DNA of 41,578 nucleotides. Origin: Actinomycetes bacterium. GTDB lineage: Bacteria > Actinomycetota > Acidimicrobiia > Acidimicrobiales > RAAP-2. Below are positions 7,396 to 39,902 of the stretch, in pieces. The notes under the pieces are model-generated. The model had not been told where the DNA came from. It did not search any database and saw only the letters and a list, made by a program, of their open reading frames with translations. Where the stretch lies: NCBI GenBank assembly GCA_021810205.1, contig JAJZJC010000023.1, positions 1 through 41,578 on the forward strand, given 5' to 3'. The first letter of the stretch is position 1; each line of letters begins with the position of its first letter. Both the position numbers and the translations under genes were made by a program.

Positions 7396-8886
7396 TCATG
7401 CGCTCAGCTTCTCCAGGAGCTGAGCCGGGGTGGCACTCGCGTCGAGCAACGCCTGCGTATGCGCTGCCGTGCCCCTCAAGGGATCCATCATAGGGACGCG
7501 GCGCAGCGGATCGGTCCCGAGGTCGAAGACGAGCGAGTCCCAGTTGGCGGTGACGACCGCGTCGGGCCAGCGGGTGAGGCACTGGCCACGGAACCATGCG
7601 CGGGTCTCCGCCGGCGGGACTGTCACCGCCCGGACGACCGACTCGTCGTCGACGAGGCGTTCGAGGCCGAGCCTGGCGTACAGCGAGCGCTCTGGACGCA
7701 GGTCGTGGTACTGGAGGTCGAGCGCCGCCAACCGCCCGTCGCTCCAGCCACAGCCGTGACGTTCACGGTAGGCCTCGACGAGCTTGCGCTTGGCCACCCA
7801 GTCGAGCTCGTGATCGAGGCTGGCGGGGTCCTGCTCGAGGCCGTGCAGGACGTGCTCCCAGCGTTCGAGGACCTGCTCGGCGACGTGCTCGTTGCCGAGG
7901 CAGGCCAGGCCGAAATGGTCCGCGTACTTGCGCGCGGCGGTGTAGAGCTCCCACTGGATCCCGAGCGCGGTCGCCGTCGAGCCGTCGGCCATGGTGATCG
8001 GACGTTCGAGCGAGAGGTCGGTGGACACCTCGTGCATCGCTCGCACCGGATCGGCCGGGGTGAGGTCCCTGGACGGCGCGACGTCGTCTTCGACCATGGA
8101 GAGCACGAGCGAGGTCGTGCCGATCTTCAAGAAGGTGGCGATCTCCGAGAGGTTGGCGTCGCCCACGATGACGTGCAGGCGCCGGAAGCGGCGAGGGTCG
8201 GCGTGCGGCTCGTCTCGGGTGTTCACGATCGGGCGCTTCAAGGTCGTCTCGAGCCCGATCACCTCCTCGAAGAACTCGGCGCGCTGGGAGATCTGGAAAT
8301 GGACGCGGTCGCGGTCGAGGGCCGGAGTCTCCGCGCCGACCTTGCCAGCGCCCGCGTACAGCTGACGCGTGACGAAGTGGGGCACGATCGCTGCAGCGAC
8401 CTTGGTGAACGGGACGTCGCGGTCCATCAGGTAGTTCTCGTGGCAGCCGTAGGAGTTGCCCTTGCCGTCGGAGTTGTTCTTGTAGACGACAGGGGTCGGC
8501 GCGTCGGGGAAGAGCTGCGCGGCGGCGCGCATGGAGCGGCGAAGCACCTCCTCGCCTGCTTTGTCGTACAGGACGCAGGTGAGCGGGTCCGCGCACTCGG
8601 GCGAGGAGTACTCGGGATGCGCGTGGTCGACGTAGTAGCGGGCGCCGTTGGTGAGGACCGTGTTCGCCAGGTGAGTCTCGACGACCGGCGCCATGGTGCC
8701 TTCACGCGAGAACCCCCGTGCGTCGTTCGCCGGTGTCTCGTCCTCGAAGTCCCACCCGGTGCGCCGGTCCGCCTGCGTCGCGTAGGCGTTCACGAGGAGC
8801 GAGGACGCGGTGATGGGGTTCCCGTCCCCACCGGGAACGTGGATGCCGTACTCGGTCTCGATCCCGCAGACCTTCACCGTGGCCAC
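7396..8886 (-). CDS. dop: Pup deamidase/depupylase Dop
   Basis: Dop deamidates the C-terminal Gln of Pup and also removes Pup from substrates. The 496-residue protein begins VATVKVCGIETEYGIHVPGG, a PafA-like ATP-binding start, and has the Dop-specific stretch after it (NPITASSLLVNAYATQ) plus the shared [31 protein letters not shown] and [18 protein letters not shown] motifs. It is about 45 residues longer than PafA in this window, as is usual. The start is GTG at 8886-8884 with TAGGGT 6 nt upstream and no Shine-Dalgarno, so a leaderless transcript is plausible although mpa ends only 20 nt upstream. Confidence 0.97.
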   Translation of the reverse strand: MATVKVCGIETEYGIHVPGGDGNPITASSLLVNAYATQADRRTGWDFEDETPANDARGFSREGTMAPVVETHLANTVLTNGARYYVDHAHPEYSSPECADPLTCVLYDKAGEEVLRRSMRAAAQLFPDAPTPVVYKNNSDGKGNSYGCHENYLMDRDVPFTKVAAAIVPHFVTRQLYAGAGKVGAETPALDRDRVHFQISQRAEFFEEVIGLETTLKRPIVNTRDEPHADPRRFRRLHVIVGDANLSEIATFLKIGTTSLVLSMVEDDVAPSRDLTPADPVRAMHEVSTDLSLERPITMADGSTATALGIQWELYTAARKYADHFGLACLGNEHVAEQVLERWEHVLHGLEQDPASLDHELDWVAKRKLVEAYRERHGCGWSDGRLAALDLQYHDLRPERSLYARLGLERLVDDESVVRAVTVPPAETRAWFRGQCLTRWPDAVVTANWDSLVFDLGTDPLRRVPMMDPLRGTAAHTQALLDASATPAQLLEKLSA

Positions 8887-8892
8887 GGTTCG

Positions 8893-8898
8893 ACCCTA
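8893..8898 (-). promoter_or_regulatory. Possible leaderless -10 hexamer of dop
   Basis: TAGGGT on the minus strand, 6 nt before the dop GTG and inside the 20-nt mpa-dop gap. No Shine-Dalgarno sequence is present. Confidence 0.4.
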
Positions 8899-8906
8899 CT
8901 GCCTCG

Positions 8907-10700
8907 TCAGAGGTACTGGCCGGTACCGACGCGTTCGATGGCCCGACCGCCGCCCCTGCCGTCACGGTCCTCGCTCATGAGGGTGCGCACGTAGACGATG
9001 CGCTCGCCCTTCTTGCCCGAGATGCGTGCCCAGTCGTCCGGGTTCGTCGTGTTCGGCAGGTCCTCGTTCTCCTTGTACTCCTGGCGGATCGACTCGACGA
9101 GGTCCGCGGTGCGGATGCCGCTTCCCCCACCGGCGATCTCCCGCTTGATCGCGAGCTTCTTCGCTCGACGCACGATGTTCTCGATCATCGCCCCCGAGGA
9201 GAAGTCGCGGTAGTAGAGGATCTCCTTGTCGCCGTTCTGGTAGGTGACCTCGAGGAAGCGGTTGTCGTCGTCGGCGCGGTACATCTCCGACACGGTCGCC
9301 TCGATCATCGCCTGGGCGGCCTTCTCGGGGTCTCCCCCACCGAGGCGCTCGACCTCCTCGGGGTCGAGCGGCAGGTCGGGCCGGAGATAGCGCGAGAAGA
9401 TCTGCGCCGCGGCCTCCGCGTCCGGCCGCTCGATCTTGATCTTCACGTCGAGCCGGCCCGGGCGCAGGATGGCCGGGTCGATCAGGTCCTCGCGGTTGGA
9501 CGCGCCGATCACGATGACGTCGCGCAAGGCCTCGACACCGTCGATCTCGGCAAGCAGCTGGGGCACGATCGTCGACTCCATGTCCGAGCTGATGCCGGTG
9601 CCTCGGGTCCTGAAGAGCGAGTCCATCTCGTCGAAGAAGACGATGACCGGCACGCCCTCTTCGGCCTTCTCGCGTGCTCGCTGGAACACCAGCCGGATCT
9701 GGCGTTCCGTCTCGCCGACGTACTTGTTCAAGAGCTCGGGGCCCTTGATGTTCAAGAAGTAGCTCCTCACGTTCTCGTTGCCGGTCGTCTCGGCCACCTT
9801 CTTGGCCAAGGAGTTGGCGACCGCCTTGGCGATGAGCGTCTTGCCGCAGCCCGGGGGGCCGTAGAGGAGGATGCCCTTGGGGGCCGGCAGGCGGTAGTTG
9901 TTGAACAGCGAGCGGTGCAGGTACGGCAGCTCGACGGCGTCGGTGATCGCGTCGATCTGGGTGTCCAGCCCGCCGACGTCCGCGTAGGTGATGTCGGGAA
10001 CCTCTTCGAGCACGAGCTCTTCGACCTCGGGGCGGGGCAGCTTCTCGATGATCAGCTGGCTGCGGGTGTCCATGAGCAGCGCGTCGCCCGCACGCAGGTG
10101 CACCCCTGCCATCGAGTCCGCGAGCTCGACCACGCGCTCTTCGTCCGCCCGGGCGAACACGAGCACCCGGCGGCTGCCCTCCAAGGTCGCGCCCTCCAAG
10201 GTCTCCTTCAAGGTGACGACCTCACCCGAGAGCTCTCCGGGTCGCGCGAGGACGACGTTCAGCGACTCGTTCAGCACCACCTCGTCGCCCTTCGAGAGGC
10301 CCGCCGGGTCGATGTCGGGGTGGAGGGAGACCCGCATCTTGCGGCCGCCCGAGAACACGTCGACGGTCTCGTCGTCGTTCGCGCCGAGGTAGGTGCCGTA
10401 GGCCGCGGGCGGCTGGGTGAGCTTCTCGACCTCCTCGCGCAGGCTGAGCAGCTGCTCCTTGGCCTGCTGGAGGGTGAAGGTCAGCTTCTCGTTCTGCGAG
10501 ATCGCCTGCGCGAGCTGCCCCTTTGACTCCAAGAGCCGCTCTTCGAGTGCCTGGACGCGCCCCGGGCTTTCTTGCAGCCGGCGTCGCAAGGCACGGACTT
10601 CCTCCTCGGCCGCGGTGAGCCGCGCGAGGAGGAGCTCGTGCTCAGTGCCAGCATCGCCGTGCCCGTGTTCCTGCTCAGGCGTCGGACTCACCTCCCGCAT
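8907..10700 (-). CDS. mpa: Proteasomal AAA ATPase Mpa/ARC
   Basis: Mpa is the hexameric ring unfoldase that binds Pup and feeds pupylated proteins into PrcAB. From ATG at 10700 it is 597 residues: an N-terminal coiled coil (about 20-85, Glu, Leu, Arg rich) that captures Pup, two OB-type interdomain regions, then the AAA module with Walker A GPPGCGKT (about 281), Walker [10 protein letters not shown], and ILRPGRLD. The conserved [20 protein letters not shown] and the terminal GQYL, the HbYX-like tail that docks on the alpha ring, mark it as Mpa rather than a general AAA protein. An in-frame GTG at 10724 would add eight residues; I prefer the ATG because a GGGG-containing stretch lies before it. 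It heads the minus-strand operon. Confidence 0.96.
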
Positions 10701-33420: not shown

Positions 33421-35415
<1,995 letters not shown>

Positions 35416-35425
35416 GGTGCCTCCC

Positions 35426-36076
35426 TCAGTTGAGCGAAGCGCGTGCCGCTGGGAAGCTCATCGGTTTGCCGACGAATAGCACGTGCCGTCCGGCCATGCC
35501 GTTCACGACGCCTGCCGCCGAGGTGTACCAGGCGGCTGCAGCGGTGATGACACCGACCACGCCCCCAGCCTTCACCAGATTCGCTGTGTTGGCAAAATTA
35601 CCGATGAACAAGAGCAGCTCGGTGATCTCAAGGGTGAAGAACACCACCAGGACCGCTTTGTTCACGAACAGGCTCCACAAGAGCATGTAGGTGTTGAAGA
35701 TGAAGAATGCCAGCAGGATCCAACCAAGGTCGTTGGTGACCTGCGTGGCGTTCTTCGCCGCCCCGGCCCCGAGCTCGACGTAGAGGCCGAGGCCGATCCA
35801 GAACCCGCCGTACGTCGAAAAGGCCGTGCAGCCGAAGACGTTGCGGTTCTTGAACTCCCACATGCCTGCCAGTAGCTGGCACGCCCCGCCGTACGCGAAC
35901 GCGTAGCCGAGCCAGTCGTTGCCCGTCCCACGTGTCCACCCGGCGTTGTGCGCCGAGAGGAGGAAGGTGGTCAGGGCGAAGGCGGCGAGCCCGAGCGGTG
36001 CTGGGTCGGCTGCCGTCGGGATGCCGATGATTTCCGTCTGCTGCACGGGTCTGGTCGACTCGAAGGTCGTCGCCAT
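35426..36076 (-). CDS. satP: SatP/GPR1/FUN34/YaaH-family acetate transporter
   Basis: The 216-residue membrane protein has six hydrophobic segments and the family signature in ADPAPLGLAAFALTTFLLS (the N-PAPLGL motif with Asp in first position) and the FNTYMLLWSL segment. Family members carry acetate and succinate, usually with protons. The ATG has GGAGG 9 nt upstream, and the whole is separated from acsA by 10 nt, which supports acetate as the substrate. The unusual length of the upstream region suggests control from the operators described near 36,312. Transport direction and ion coupling are inference. Confidence 0.92.
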   Translation of the reverse strand: MATTFESTRPVQQTEIIGIPTAADPAPLGLAAFALTTFLLSAHNAGWTRGTGNDWLGYAFAYGGACQLLAGMWEFKNRNVFGCTAFSTYGGFWIGLGLYVELGAGAAKNATQVTNDLGWILLAFFIFNTYMLLWSLFVNKAVLVVFFTLEITELLLFIGNFANTANLVKAGGVVGVITAAAAWYTSAAGVVNGMAGRHVLFVGKPMSFPAARASLN

Positions 36077-36114: not shown

Positions 36115-36240
36115 CTCGCTTGCCATGGGCACATCGATGCCCGGCACGACGGCCGTGGCTGTGCAGCCCCTCACGGGTCCCCCCATTGCGGGCAGCCCCC
36201 CTCTACGGGCAGCACGGCAGCTGCCGACCTGCCACCTGGG

Positions 36241-36269
36241 ATCTTGAAGAAGTTGTTGCGTTCTGGCAA
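36241..36269 (-). promoter_or_regulatory. Probable satP-acsA promoter
   Basis: Minus strand: -35 TTGCCA (36264-36269), a 17-nt spacer, and -10 CAAGAT (36241-36246). The -35 matches five of six consensus bases. Transcription would start near 36234, leaving a leader of about 158 nt that contains the hairpin. Confidence 0.45.
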
Positions 36270-36311
36270 GGTCCCACGAGCACCCCATCGGCGGACGGCC
36301 GCCACGCGTCG

Positions 36312-36385
36312 CCGAACGGTCGATTTTTCACGACGAACGGTCGGTCGGTAGACGAGGAACGGTCGATCGGTAGACGAGGAACGGC
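36312..36385. promoter_or_regulatory. Four LytTR-type direct repeats between satP and the histidine kinase
   Basis: On the minus strand the 9-mers ACCGTTCGG (36312-36320), ACCGTTCGT (36333-36341), ACCGTTCCT (36355-36363) and GCCGTTCCT (36377-36385) repeat at 21, 22 and 22 bp. The published LytTR operator is a 9-bp direct repeat, [TA][AC][CA]GTTN[AG][TG], with 12-13 bp between copies; the first two match it fully and the spacing matches throughout. The adjacent response regulator has a LytTR domain. Confidence 0.6.
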
Positions 36386-36507
36386 GCGATGACCCAGCGG
36401 TGGGCGGCTCGTGGCCGAAGCGTCGTCGGTGCCGGGGCCTGTGGAAGACTGCACGGGCGCGCCACGACGGTGGGTGGGCGAAGACGCGGCGTGCGGGGGT
36501 ACTGGGC

Positions 36508-37683
36508 GTGCGAGTGGCAATTTGGGTCGCGCTGGGGGGCGTCGTCGGCGTCGCCGCGGTCGTCGCGTGGTTCGCGTTGCGAGGTGGCCGCGCCCTGGGC
36601 ACGCCATCGCAGCGCACCACCTTCGAGACGCTCCACACCGCCAGCCAGACCGCCCCGGCGTTGCGCGAGGGGCTGACCACGGCGAGTGCGGAGCGCGCGG
36701 TGCCGCACCTTCGCCGGCTCCTCGGAGCAGGCGTGGTGCTCGCCGACCGAGGGGGCATGCTCGCTGTCGCGGACGTGGACACCACCCACTGCGCCCTGTT
36801 GCAGGAGGCGCTGGAGGCCGCAGTGACCTCGGGGAGGGCGCAGGTGCTCACCACGCGCCAGCTCGCCTGCGGCGACTCGCTCTGCGTCCTCCAAGGCGGT
36901 GTTGTCGTTCCCCTTCGCGTCGACGGGCAGGTGGTGGGGGCGCTCGGGTGCGTGGCGACGGTGGCGTCGGTCGCGCTCACGCGCCTCACCACCGAGGTGG
37001 GCCGGTTCGTGTCCTCCCAGCTCGAGCTGGCCGAGCTGGAGCGTGAGCGGGGCCGGGCGGACCAGGCGGAGCTGCGGTTCCTGCGAGCGCAGATCGCCCC
37101 GCACTTCGTCTACAACGCGCTGACCGCCATCGAGTCGTTCATCCGAACCGATCCCGAGCGGGCCCGCGAGCTGCTGGTGGACTTCGCCGACTTCACCCGT
37201 TACAGCTTCCGCAGCCACGGCCAGTTCGTCACGATGGCTGAGGAGCTGCGGCTCGTGGACACCTACTTGGACCTCGAGCGCGCGCGGTTCGGGGACCGGC
37301 TGTCGGTGTCGATCCGCGTGGAGCCCGAAGTCTTGAGCGTCCTGCTGCCATCGCTGGTCATCCAGCCGCTGGTGGAGAACGCGGTGCGCCACGGGCTGGA
37401 GCCGTCCGAGCGGCCAGGCAGCCTGTCCATCGCCATCACCGACGAAGGTGCCGAGGCGGCAGTGGAGATCGTCGACGACGGCATCGGCGCGGACCCCGTG
37501 CGCCTCGTACGGGTGCTCTCGGGAACCGATCCGAGCGAAGCGGTCGGGCTGCACAATGTGGACGAGCGCCTCCGCGCCGTCTTCGGCGAGGAGTACGGGG
37601 TGCGGATCCACAGCACGCTGGGAGGGGGCACCACGGTCAAGCTGCGCATCCCCAAGCGTCACCGGGCGGCGGTGCCGGCGTGA
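36508..37683 (+). CDS. LytS-type sensor histidine kinase
   Basis: The 391-residue protein from GTG 36508 has one membrane span (about residues 3-25), a GAF-like sensor region (about 35-165, with TFETLHTASQTAPALREGL), and a LytS/His_kinase module: QIAPHFVYNALTAIESF with His199 as the phosphorylation site, then LVENAVRHGLEP and DDGIGADP of the ATPase domain. This RALGTPSQRTTFETLH start resembles actinobacterial kinases found beside acetate transporters. GGGGG is 8 nt before the GTG; a start at 36400 would add about 36 residues. The stop overlaps the regulator start by GTGA. The signal is unknown; acetate or pyruvate would fit the neighbours. Confidence 0.9.
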   Translation: MRVAIWVALGGVVGVAAVVAWFALRGGRALGTPSQRTTFETLHTASQTAPALREGLTTASAERAVPHLRRLLGAGVVLADRGGMLAVADVDTTHCALLQEALEAAVTSGRAQVLTTRQLACGDSLCVLQGGVVVPLRVDGQVVGALGCVATVASVALTRLTTEVGRFVSSQLELAELERERGRADQAELRFLRAQIAPHFVYNALTAIESFIRTDPERARELLVDFADFTRYSFRSHGQFVTMAEELRLVDTYLDLERARFGDRLSVSIRVEPEVLSVLLPSLVIQPLVENAVRHGLEPSERPGSLSIAITDEGAEAAVEIVDDGIGADPVRLVRVLSGTDPSEAVGLHNVDERLRAVFGEEYGVRIHSTLGGGTTVKLRIPKRHRAAVPA

Positions 37684-38501
37684 GCGTGTTGTCGATACTG
37701 GCGGTCGACGACGAGGCGCCGTCGCTCGACGAGCTCTCCTATCTCCTGGCGCGCTCCCCGCTCGTCGGGCGCGTGACCGTCGCGTCGAGCGCGACGGAAG
37801 GGCTCCGGCGTCTGAAGGCCGAGCAGTTCGACGCCGTGCTGCTCGACATCCGCATGCCGGGGCTCGACGGCATGGAGCTCGCACGAGTCCTCGCCCGCTT
37901 CGCCTCTCCCCCTGCAGTGGTCTTCGTGACCGCGCACGAGGACCACGCCGTCGAGGCCTTCGAAGTGGGCGCGGCGGGCTACCTGCTGAAACCCGTCGAC
38001 GCTCAACGTCTCGACCGGGCGCTCCAGCGCGCGGTGGCCCGGCTCGCCGACCGCCCCGAGATCGCCTCGGCGTCCGGTGCGACGGGGGCGAATGGCGCGC
38101 GGGAGGGCGGCGCGCGCGACGAGCCGGCGCGCCACGGGCCGCTCGGACCCGATGGGCACGATGTGGTCGCGGTGGACTCCGGTGCCCGGACCCTTCTCTT
38201 GGCGTTGTCGGACATCGCGTGGGTGGAGTCCGCAGGGGACTATGTCCGGCTACACCTGCGTGACGGTGCCAACTACCTTCTGCGCACGCCGATGGCCACC
38301 CTCGAAGAGCAGTGGGCGGACCGAGGCTTCGTGCGGATCCACAGGGGATTCCTGGTCTCCTTGGCGGACATCACCGAGATCCGGACCGATGGGGCGCATA
38401 CCACCGTCCATGTCGGTAGCCAGGAGCTGACGGTGAGCCGCCGCCACGTGCACGACTTGCGCGATCGGCTCGTGCGATACGCGAGACCCGGCGGTCGCTG
38501 A
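37680..38501 (+). CDS. LytTR-family response regulator
   Basis: The 273-residue protein has a receiver domain (1-120) with acidic pocket Asp10, Asp11 and phosphoacceptor Asp56 in VLLDIRMPG, the conserved TAHEDHA Thr and GYLLKPV Lys, a Gly- and Ala-rich linker, and a LytTR DNA-binding domain (about 160-268) with IAWVESAGDYVRLHL, FVRIHRGFLVSL and ELTVSRRHV. LytTR domains bind pairs of 9-bp direct repeats, which are present just upstream of its partner kinase. The start GTG overlaps the kinase stop. Likely target: the divergent satP-acsA operon and possibly its own operon. Confidence 0.94.
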   Translation: MSVLSILAVDDEAPSLDELSYLLARSPLVGRVTVASSATEGLRRLKAEQFDAVLLDIRMPGLDGMELARVLARFASPPAVVFVTAHEDHAVEAFEVGAAGYLLKPVDAQRLDRALQRAVARLADRPEIASASGATGANGAREGGARDEPARHGPLGPDGHDVVAVDSGARTLLLALSDIAWVESAGDYVRLHLRDGANYLLRTPMATLEEQWADRGFVRIHRGFLVSLADITEIRTDGAHTTVHVGSQELTVSRRHVHDLRDRLVRYARPGGR

Positions 38502-39248
38502 CGCGCCGCGGTGCACGAGGAAGATCTCGCCAAGGAGCTCGCCAACAAGTTCGAGGACCATTGCACACGTGGCGAGCCGCAACAGATTGCGCGCATGGAG
38601 GACGCCAGTGATCTTAAGAGATCCGCCCCGAGGCATGTAGCAGTCCCCGCCTTCGCTGCGTGCGCGCATTCGAGCCCGCACTGCGGCACGTCCGTGCACG
38701 ACTCCCGGATCGCCACGGAAATGTCACACACGAATGCATGCGGTCCGACACATCGCGGACGCGGCGCTTCGATCCTCAACCGACGCTTGCTCGACGTTGT
38801 GCACGCGGATCCTCGCAGGTCGCGGCGTTATGAACGGACATACCGACTTCGATGGATGGGATCGAAGTACACCATGTCGGAGTTGATGTTCTGTTGATTC
38901 TTGCCTCGATTGGCACGACGTCGCTCGGCACCGCTAGGTTTCACGGCGCTGAACGCGAGACGGCAAAGGCGAGAGAACGCCTGCCGGACGCTGACTGCGG
39001 GAGGGGGCGGTACAGAGCGGCGCCCCGACCGTTCGGTGAAGGCAACCGACGACGACACGCAGCCGGGAGGATCAACCCGACCAACGAGGAACGGACCGAC
39101 ACATCGGTCGCACACCCTGCAGCGATGAGCTAGGACGGATCGCGCCTTCCGCGCGCCGTCCGGGGCGTGGATGCATTGGCCGCGGTCCGAAGATCATCGA
39201 CGGGCGGAGGGAGGCGCGTACTCACGCGCCCCGATCACGGGAGGTGCC
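38502..39248. other. Long region without a convincing gene
   Basis: About 750 nt with lower GC in places than the surroundings. Three inverted repeats stand out: GATCT-TAAG-AGATC (38611-38624), ACTTCGAT / ATCGAAGT with a 7-nt loop (38846-38868) and GGACGG-AT-CGCGC / GCGCG-CCGTCC (39133-39161), plus GGCGCGT / ACGCGCC (39213-39230) just ahead of the next gene. Short ORFs here lack recognisable domains. Confidence 0.6.
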
Positions 39249-39902
39249 GTGCGTTCTCGCATCGCACTCATCGCGGCGATTGCCGTAAGCATCATCATTT
39301 GCACCGCTGCTGTCGCGAGCGCGGTGACCCTCACTGCCGGGTCGTTCGCGAGCGGCGCGGCGCATGTAGCGAAGGCGCATGTAGTGAAGGCGCATGTAGT
39401 GAAACGGGAACGGCGAGGCGCCACCCGCGTCGGCCACCGGGCTGCGGCCCGTTCGGCGAAGCCCGGTTCTTCGGGCTTGGTGCGCCATCTGGTCGGAGAG
39501 TTCGAGTGGGCCATGCTGCGTCGGCACCCGATGACGGCGCCGGCACCGGTCGGTGCGCCATCGCCCGAGGCCGCGCCATTGCCGGTGGCACCTGCGTCGC
39601 AACCAGCCGTCGAAGCAGTGTCGTACACAGATGCCACCTCGACGACAACGCCGGATTGGGCGTGCATTCGCTACCACGAGTCGGGCGACAACTACGCGGA
39701 AGACTCCGGCAACGGCTACTCCGGCGCCTACCAGTTCTTGCCGAGCACGTGGAACGAAGCGGTGTCTGGCGCTGGCTACCCGCAGTACGCGAATGGCTGG
39801 GCCTTCGAAGCTCCGCCGGCTGTGCAGAACGCTGCGGCGTTGTGGCTGTACAACGCCGACGGCTGGCAACCCTGGAGCACGCGCTACGTGTGCGGTCTGT
39901 GA
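39249..39902 (+). CDS. Rpf-like transglycosylase-domain secreted protein
   Basis: The 217-residue protein starts with a signal peptide (VRSRIALIAAIAVSIIICTAAVASA), has a low-complexity middle with three HVxKA-type repeats and Pro-Ala rich sequence, and ends in a resuscitation-promoting-factor-like domain (about 135-217): WACIRYHESGDNYAEDSGN with putative catalytic Glu144, YSGAYQFLPSTW and AAALWLYNADGWQPWSTRY. Rpf enzymes cut peptidoglycan and help dormant cells resume growth. No LysM or G5 domain is present. GGGAGG lies 4 nt before the GTG; longer starts would place extra residues ahead of the signal peptide. Preceded by a hairpin. Confidence 0.85.
   Translation: MRSRIALIAAIAVSIIICTAAVASAVTLTAGSFASGAAHVAKAHVVKAHVVKRERRGATRVGHRAAARSAKPGSSGLVRHLVGEFEWAMLRRHPMTAPAPVGAPSPEAAPLPVAPASQPAVEAVSYTDATSTTTPDWACIRYHESGDNYAEDSGNGYSGAYQFLPSTWNEAVSGAGYPQYANGWAFEAPPAVQNAAALWLYNADGWQPWSTRYVCGL
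39360..39404 (+). repeat. 15-bp tandem repeat inside the Rpf-like gene
   Basis: Three units of GCGCATGTAGYGAAR at 39360-39374, 39375-39389 and 39390-39404, with two base changes. It encodes AHVAK/AHVVK/AHVVK, a basic linker after the signal peptide. Confidence 0.9.

Follow-up and report, generated by a model that had tools for sequence, protein, structure and literature searches.

A phased array of LytTR-type direct repeats, probably the operator that places acetate uptake genes under a LytS-type kinase and LytTR regulator in Actinomycetota

The control of carboxylate transporters by LytS/LytTR pairs, the direct repeats of LytTR operators, and operators with three repeats are all known. LytTR regulatory systems (LRS) combine a LytTR regulator with an inhibitory membrane protein in place of a kinase, and CrbR, which takes part in the control of acetate use, is a LuxR-type and not a LytTR protein. 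In the LytST–pftAB system of Bacillus subtilis, the mutagenized LytT operator consists of two 13-nt boxes 8 nt apart, both of which are required for induction (PMC5626966). That system shares with the locus described here a LytS/LytTR pair beside a carboxylate transporter (there for pyruvate) and a 21-bp period, and it differs in its target (PftAB rather than SatP–AcsA or MctC), in having two boxes only, and in its phylum (PMC5626966). In Escherichia coli, BtsSR controls yjiY and YpdAB controls yhjX, in agreement with the statement of the original prediction that such pairs control enterobacterial carboxylate transporters; these operators, like ours, serve carboxylate transport and have repeats of 9–11 nt with an 11–13-nt spacer (PMC5552118, PMC4847170). 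The targets, motif, and phylum of our locus are different, and its arrays reach six sites in related genomes. Operators with more than two repeats are described for RcoM and CoxC, which have three direct repeats at the same 12–13-bp spacing; these proteins, however, are one-component CO sensors that use 8-bp repeats of another sequence, CoxC being a repressor (PMC11347149). Finally, CrbS/CrbR resembles our system as a two-component control of acs and acetate use, while in CrbS a STAC domain joins a hybrid kinase to an SLC5 symporter (PMC5715377).

The locus lies in a window of 41,578 nucleotides, by which we mean the whole stretch of DNA analyzed; its source contig is C18 of an assembly (G000) of 3.0 Mb in 177 contigs that is 71.65% complete. 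On the minus strand, acsA (33421–35415) encodes an acetate–CoA ligase (TIGR02188, 957 bits, cut-off 725) and satP (35426–36076) an acetate uptake transporter of the YaaH/AceTr family (NF038013, 120.9 bits, cut-off 50; PF01184), so that both proteins expected of an acetate uptake and activation operon pass their profile cut-offs. Divergently, on the plus strand, a histidine kinase (HK) of 391 amino acids, counted from a GTG at 36508 (36508–37683), has the PF06580 His_kinase and HATPase_c domains by which kinases of the LytS/BtsS/YpdA type are recognized. It is followed by a response regulator (RR; 37680–38501) with a receiver domain (PF00072, 84.9 bits) and a LytTR domain (PF04397, 67.9 bits, over the cut-off), as had been read from the sequence in the original prediction. 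With a receiver domain in the regulator and a kinase as its partner, the pair is not of the LRS type, and the regulator gene is the only LytTR gene found in the window's genome (72% complete). The regulator model has a mean pLDDT of 84; its nearest full-length structure is ComE (4cbv) and the match of its LytTR domain is 3d6w (TMt 0.83). A phmmer search of solved structures with the LytTR domain gave no match at E ≤ 0.1. The reading that we prefer, and consider very probable, is that a repeat array between satP and the kinase gene is the operator of the adjacent LytTR regulator, through which a kinase signal would activate satP–acsA, with the same regulator lineage acting elsewhere at a DUF485–MctC-type operon.

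The original prediction described four 9-bp direct repeats at 21–22-bp spacing on the minus strand. As the coordinates confirm, these are ACCGTTCGG (36312–36320), ACCGTTCGT (36333–36341), ACCGTTCCT (36355–36363), and GCCGTTCCT (36377–36385), separated by 12, 13, and 13 bp. The count of four was too low, since a fifth, degenerate site in phase, CGGCGGACGGCCG (36289–36301), carries the 9-mer GCCGTCCGC at 36291–36299, 12 bp satP-ward of ACCGTTCGG. Numbered from the satP promoter and scored as 13-bp sites with a matrix built from the family, the minus-strand operator sites are site 1 (36289–36301, 5.8 bits, in 21-bp phase), site 2 (36310–36322, 18.8 bits), site 3 (36331–36343, 19.3 bits), site 4 (36353–36365, 12.4 bits), and the degenerate site 5 (36375–36387, 5.6 bits); sites 1 and 5 are weak and not significant taken singly. 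The array has the form of a LytTR operator, with 9-bp direct repeats at gaps of 12, 12, 13, and 13 bp that lie upstream of a −35 element and point toward the target, and it departs from the usual two-repeat form in having five phased sites in the window and two to six in the family. GAACGG occurs 18 times on the plus strand of the window, and a spacing of 21 or 22 bp is found among the four of the array only. In 5000 dinucleotide shuffles of the intergenic region, none had three phased GAACGG pairs, as the real region does, and two had one pair or more. A loose 10-mer scan of the window with two mismatches showed no enrichment (116 observed against 125 expected), so the signal of the array is its phasing and not the abundance of the motif. 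Chance or base composition as the source of the array is ruled out by the shuffles together with the conservation described below. Two isolated GAACGG-type sites, at 39026–39035 (minus) and 39089–39094 (plus), precede a transglycosylase (Rpf-like) gene at 39171–39902; they are on opposite strands and unphased, and are probably due to chance. The 5′ leader of satP also holds about two copies of a 17-bp repeat, CCCCCCACTACGGGCAG-like, at 36179–36213.

A search for the regulator in 150 genomes of the family, a sample of a larger group, found it in 19, the window's included, at 142 bits or more, with a clear break to the other response regulators (57 bits or less among the matches listed). The other 18 genomes gave 19 family loci, one genome (G080) contributing two, L033 and L034. 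L034 was trimmed to its first 420 bases, before an inserted stretch; L042 is not in alignment A1, nor L034 in A2. The satP gene is divergent from the kinase gene in 18 of the 19 loci, the contig of the 19th ending before satP, and an acetate–CoA ligase match adjoins satP on the same strand in 16, the remaining contigs again ending earlier. In six of these 16 (L033, L034, L038, L039, L040, and L042) the ligase is 42–44% identical to AcsA of the window; the two that were typed are both AcsA (739–740 bits, cut-off 725), and with satP, HK, RR, and array kept, the enzyme has apparently been exchanged while the arrangement was retained.

The repeats beside this divergent pair behave in the relatives as the original prediction required, the family keeping their sequence and strand, their 21-bp phase, and their spacing from the satP −35. 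CGARCGG pairs at 20–22 bp number 33 in 18 of the 19 family loci, 31 of them at exactly 21 bp, compared with a mean of 0.009 and a maximum of 1 in shuffled intergenic regions, and none of the 19 loci has such a phased pair on the opposite strand. The exception, L040, has exact cores at multiples of 21. Leave-one-out scoring recovered chains of two to six phased sites (29–88 bits) in 20 of 20 intergenic regions, including that of the window, while 1000 shuffled regions gave chains of at most two sites and 16 bits. The conserved core with divergent spacers bears on the extremely improbable alternative that the array is a non-functional 22-bp tandem repeat. A 22-bp tandem repeat at 36330–36384 does take in sites 3–5, and L036 carries near-identical units; yet across relatives it is the core that is kept while spacers differ, the period is 21 bp, and the phase to the −35 is fixed. 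Duplication accounts for the growth of an array and not for its conservation. The array probably owes part of its length to duplication of units, since sites 3–5 lie within the tandem repeat. In L036 the near-identical tandem operator units are near 178–275 of the intergenic region; together with the window, they suggest that arrays grow and shrink by duplication of units. In L034 (G080:C142), the region from array to kinase is more than 1 kb longer than in other loci, by eye apparently a mobile-element insertion, and the kinase stretch from its tblastn match contains a stop.

The promoter TTGCCA-17-CAAGAT that had been proposed to face satP is found as described, on the minus strand, with its −35 at 36264–36269 and its −10 at 36241–36246. 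CANNATC occurs at the position of the −10 in 17 of 19 intergenic regions and the CC preceding the −35 is kept in 18 of 19; the hexamers of the relatives were located through TTG[CT], so the conservation of TTG[CT] is by construction and that of CC and CANNATC is not. For L039 the −35 script returned a blank in these counts and in the shuffled controls, and the geometry analysis does place its −35. On the other side of the array, the sequence TGTGGAAGACT (36440–36450, plus) is a putative −10 region of the HK–RR operon; the expression [TC]GTG[GC][ACG]ANNNT has a match on the right-hand side of the array in all 20 intergenic regions, compared with a mean of 0.46 and a maximum of 3 of 20 in shuffled flanks. 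Both location rules (the nearest [GA]CAA and the HK expression) were chosen after the sequences had been viewed, and the shuffled controls were run afterwards. Because the conserved element at 36440–36450 falls inside the longer open reading frame, the kinase probably starts at GTG 36508 and not at 36400.

The original prediction placed the array 42 bp or more upstream of the −35. This distance holds for the nearest of the four repeats, and with the fifth 9-mer, which ends 21 bp upstream of TTGCCA, the array begins at 21 bp. Counted modulo 21, the first strong site lies 18–19 bp from the satP −35 in 17 of 20 loci, whereas shuffled left flanks give this phase in 0.8 of 20 on average and in 5 at most. 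The chain includes a site at the position of the window's site 1 in 10 of the 17 relatives with a located −35. In L044, L045, and L046, the distance modulo 21 is 8, shorter by roughly one turn of the helix. This puts a 9-mer about 10 bp from the satP −35 in L044 and L045, which is the distance favored in LytTR regulatory systems (PMC6193735). These data bear on whether the array chiefly autoregulates the HK–RR operon, with satP incidental. The array lies between both promoters, and LytTR regulatory systems of Streptococcus mutans do autoregulate through direct repeats 4–11 bp from the −35 (PMC6193735). We nevertheless regard autoregulation as unlikely, since the gap between array and HK −10 ranges from 22 to 171 bp over the 20 intergenic regions while the distance to the satP −35 is fixed in 17 of 20, and since the sites read toward satP with no opposite-strand pair. 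The combination of a fixed distance on one side and a variable gap on the other indicates that the array is built for satP.

The same geometry speaks to the sign of the control. The LytTR protein CoxC represses through three repeats that overlap the −35 (PMC11347149), and a regulator bound to our array might likewise repress satP–acsA. This is improbable, as no site covers the satP −35, the proximal 9-mer ending upstream of it, on the side where most LytTR activators bind according to PMC11347149; the −10 CAAGAT is also poor, as we would expect of an activated promoter. From position and orientation, we infer that the regulator activates satP–acsA.

The operator also tracks the regulator among genomes. 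The pattern GARCGG-N15-GARCGG was discarded for genome-wide use, having 22 matches against 60 in its reversed control, and a stricter pattern was adopted. With at most one mismatch, this strict operator occurs in 13 of the 150 family genomes, namely, in 12 of the 19 regulator-bearing genomes and in 1 of the other 131; the reversed pattern gave none. SatP homologues (E ≤ 1e-12) are present in 88 of the 150 genomes, among them all 19 that carry the regulator; of the 69 that have a SatP homologue and no regulator, none has the strict operator. Fisher p values for the association are 3.6e-12 and 2.5e-10, statistics that ignore kinship. The strict pattern misses 7 of the 19 regulator-bearing genomes, and 17 of the 19 match at two mismatches or fewer; the one-mismatch count is preferred because some two-mismatch matches lie off the array contig and the reversed control gives a few as well. 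In the window's own genome, the strict pattern at three mismatches or fewer has four matches (two in the array, one each on contigs C4 and C37), the same number as its reversed control, and no further regulon member is therefore claimed. A 21-bp tandem repeat in another genome (G022:C211:12924–13019), GGCCGAACGGTGGCGGGACC-like, mimics the operator and looks unrelated.

The MctC and acetate genes of Corynebacterium are controlled by RamA, RamB, and GlxR. On this model, a different factor, for example, an acetate regulator of the RamA/RamB or CRP type, could own the sites, the LytTR pair being a mere neighbor. We judge this very improbable because the sites follow the regulator through the family genomes and because a direct repeat of 13 + 8 bp is the form of a tested LytTR operator.

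Outside the family, relatives were collected from the regulator alignment as the best 80 of at least 527 confirmed candidates, mainly from named actinomycetes. Among these best 80 the pair occurs in Mycolicibacterium, Rhodococcus, Nocardia, Gordonia, Streptomyces, Actinomadura, and others; one record labeled Acidobacteria groups with mycobacteria (support 92/86). A kinase relative is present in 77 of these 80 loci. The first of two mycobacterial symporters is matched in 75 of the best 80. Matches to the second occur in 74, of which many are cross-matches to the first symporter, and within reach of the regulator SatP is found in 4 and acetate–CoA ligase in 10 of the 80. A matrix made from the satP sites of the family only was used to scan 78 of these loci, with L051 (on the same contig as L050) and L052 excluded. 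A pair of at least 15 bits at exactly 21 bp is present in 47 of the 78 loci from the best 80. At the other spacings between 10 and 60 bp, 0–15 of 78 loci have a pair, the highest count being at 42 bp, which is 2 × 21, and the next at 18 bp (11 loci); Markov-resampled loci give 0–2. This occurrence near the regulator is a further point against another factor as owner of the sites.

The second symporter could be mapped from its start in 39 loci, and in 35 of the 39, again from the best 80 of at least 527, the pair is upstream on the strand that reads toward the symporter, which also argues against autoregulation; in the other four (L083, L091, L111, and L115) no 21-bp pair was found. The pairs sit 290–422 bp before the apparent start of the second symporter. 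The single operon that was typed, in L058, accounts for such a distance in that locus: NCBIfam assigns the symporter to MctC (914.9 bits, cut-off 670), its apparent start over-extends into a DUF485 gene (9006–9356; PF04341, 128.9 bits), and the pair (8877–8910) is about 100 bp before the DUF485 gene. Of the remaining 12 of the 47 pairs, nine are on the same strand, including one before satP in L085 and one between regulator and symporter in L118. The other three (L086:11563, L117:10728, and L121:10001, that of L117 scoring 24 bits) lie on the opposite strand and not at a symporter start; they may mark further targets. L052 has a pair of its own between divergent satP and kinase genes. No pair of 15 bits or more at 21 bp was found in 31 of the 78 loci, including all ten of Micromonospora and Actinoplanes/Winogradskya and four of four of Pseudonocardia; there, either the motif has drifted or the targets are elsewhere. 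The coupling of the array to SatP–AcsA that the original prediction proposed is supported by family conservation. Judged by sequence, SatP–AcsA is one of two candidate target classes; among the loci seen, the other, a DUF485–MctC/ActP-type operon, is the commoner. Eight family loci (L041 and L044–L050) have, beside the regulator, an SSF symporter with a relationship to mycobacterial SSF1, which was not found in the eleven loci of the window's genus (L032–L040 and L042–L043), some of which are short; in that genus, the permease may have been lost or replaced by SatP.

Taken together with the known LytTR systems, these data point to the following mechanism. The kinase would sense carboxylate availability, in the form of acetate, pyruvate, or a linked redox or energy state, and would phosphorylate the LytTR regulator. 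Regulator molecules would then occupy one 13-bp site after another, in 21-bp steps along the same face of the DNA, and fill the array in the direction of the satP −35; there, the weak proximal site would bring a regulator near RNA polymerase and activate satP–acsA. YpdB binds a strong and a weak site sequentially and cooperatively (PMC4847170), which suits an array with a weak promoter-proximal site. SatP would import acetate, and AcsA would then activate it. In other Actinomycetota, the same regulator lineage would use two or more such sites at the DUF485–MctC-type operon, which encodes a monocarboxylate/acetate symporter.

The kinase itself offers some indication of what may be sensed. In its model (pLDDT 73), a single long helix near the N terminus (residues 30–62), which by eye may be a membrane helix, is followed by an α/β, GAF-like sensor region and the kinase core; GanS (6swj) is the nearest solved kinase domain among the matches listed. 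Unlike BtsS and YpdA, the kinase of the window gave no Pfam match at E ≤ 0.001 to an N-terminal multi-TM LytS sensor domain. Foldseek matched the model mainly to kinase domains and multidomain photoreceptors, and none of the matches listed assigned the sensor region; a match to GAF came from one kinase relative only, with a score at the cut-off. Cys157 and Cys162, numbered from GTG 36400, are invariant in the 19-sequence family alignment, and in the 77 kinase relatives (from the best 80 of at least 527) Cys157 is kept in 48 of 53 and Cys162 in 47 of 64 that have a residue there. This conserved C-x4-C pair in the sensor region is possibly related to redox or metal. A broader reading, which we put forward as doubtful, is that an Actinomycetota-wide LytTR system is the main switch for acetate and monocarboxylate entry, with the family array as a filament rheostat and a kinase that senses inside the cell. 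The array of two to six sites, grown by unit duplication, would here carry a filament of regulator, the number of sites would set the threshold and gain of satP–acsA induction, and sensing would be intracellular, through a GAF-like domain with the two conserved cysteines in place of the multi-TM domain of LytS/BtsS.

The conservation of sites and spacing in relatives suggests a widespread, uncharacterized switch of acetate uptake. In open-licence PMC articles, compared by title and abstract opening, the matches listed include no paper in which a LytTR pair controls satP, acsA, or mctC, and none on six-site phased arrays, satP–acsA or DUF485–mctC targets, or an actinomycete-wide link. The regulon and the variable-length array therefore appear undescribed, the family and type of mechanism being known. 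An actinomycete kinase–regulator pair with no described role found gains a probable function, a set of targets, and a DNA code that can be read, an operator through which targets can be predicted with no data beyond the sequence. The acetate transporters SatP and MctC, which are unrelated, are linked under one regulator lineage, and the natural series of arrays with two to six sites is material for studying the cooperation of LytTR proteins on DNA.

Finally, the gene order varies in some Streptomyces loci (L078, L118, and L127), in which RR, symporter, and HK follow one another, so that RR and HK flank the symporter. In Streptomyces coelicolor, a published table has SCO1217 as an orphan kinase and SCO1220 as an orphan LytTR regulator (PMC9739842), and an ArgR study that probed SCO1220–1221 saw no clear shift (PMC3293853). 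By analogy with the flanking order in the three Streptomyces loci, SCO1217/SCO1220 is probably a split form of the HK–RR pair of the window.
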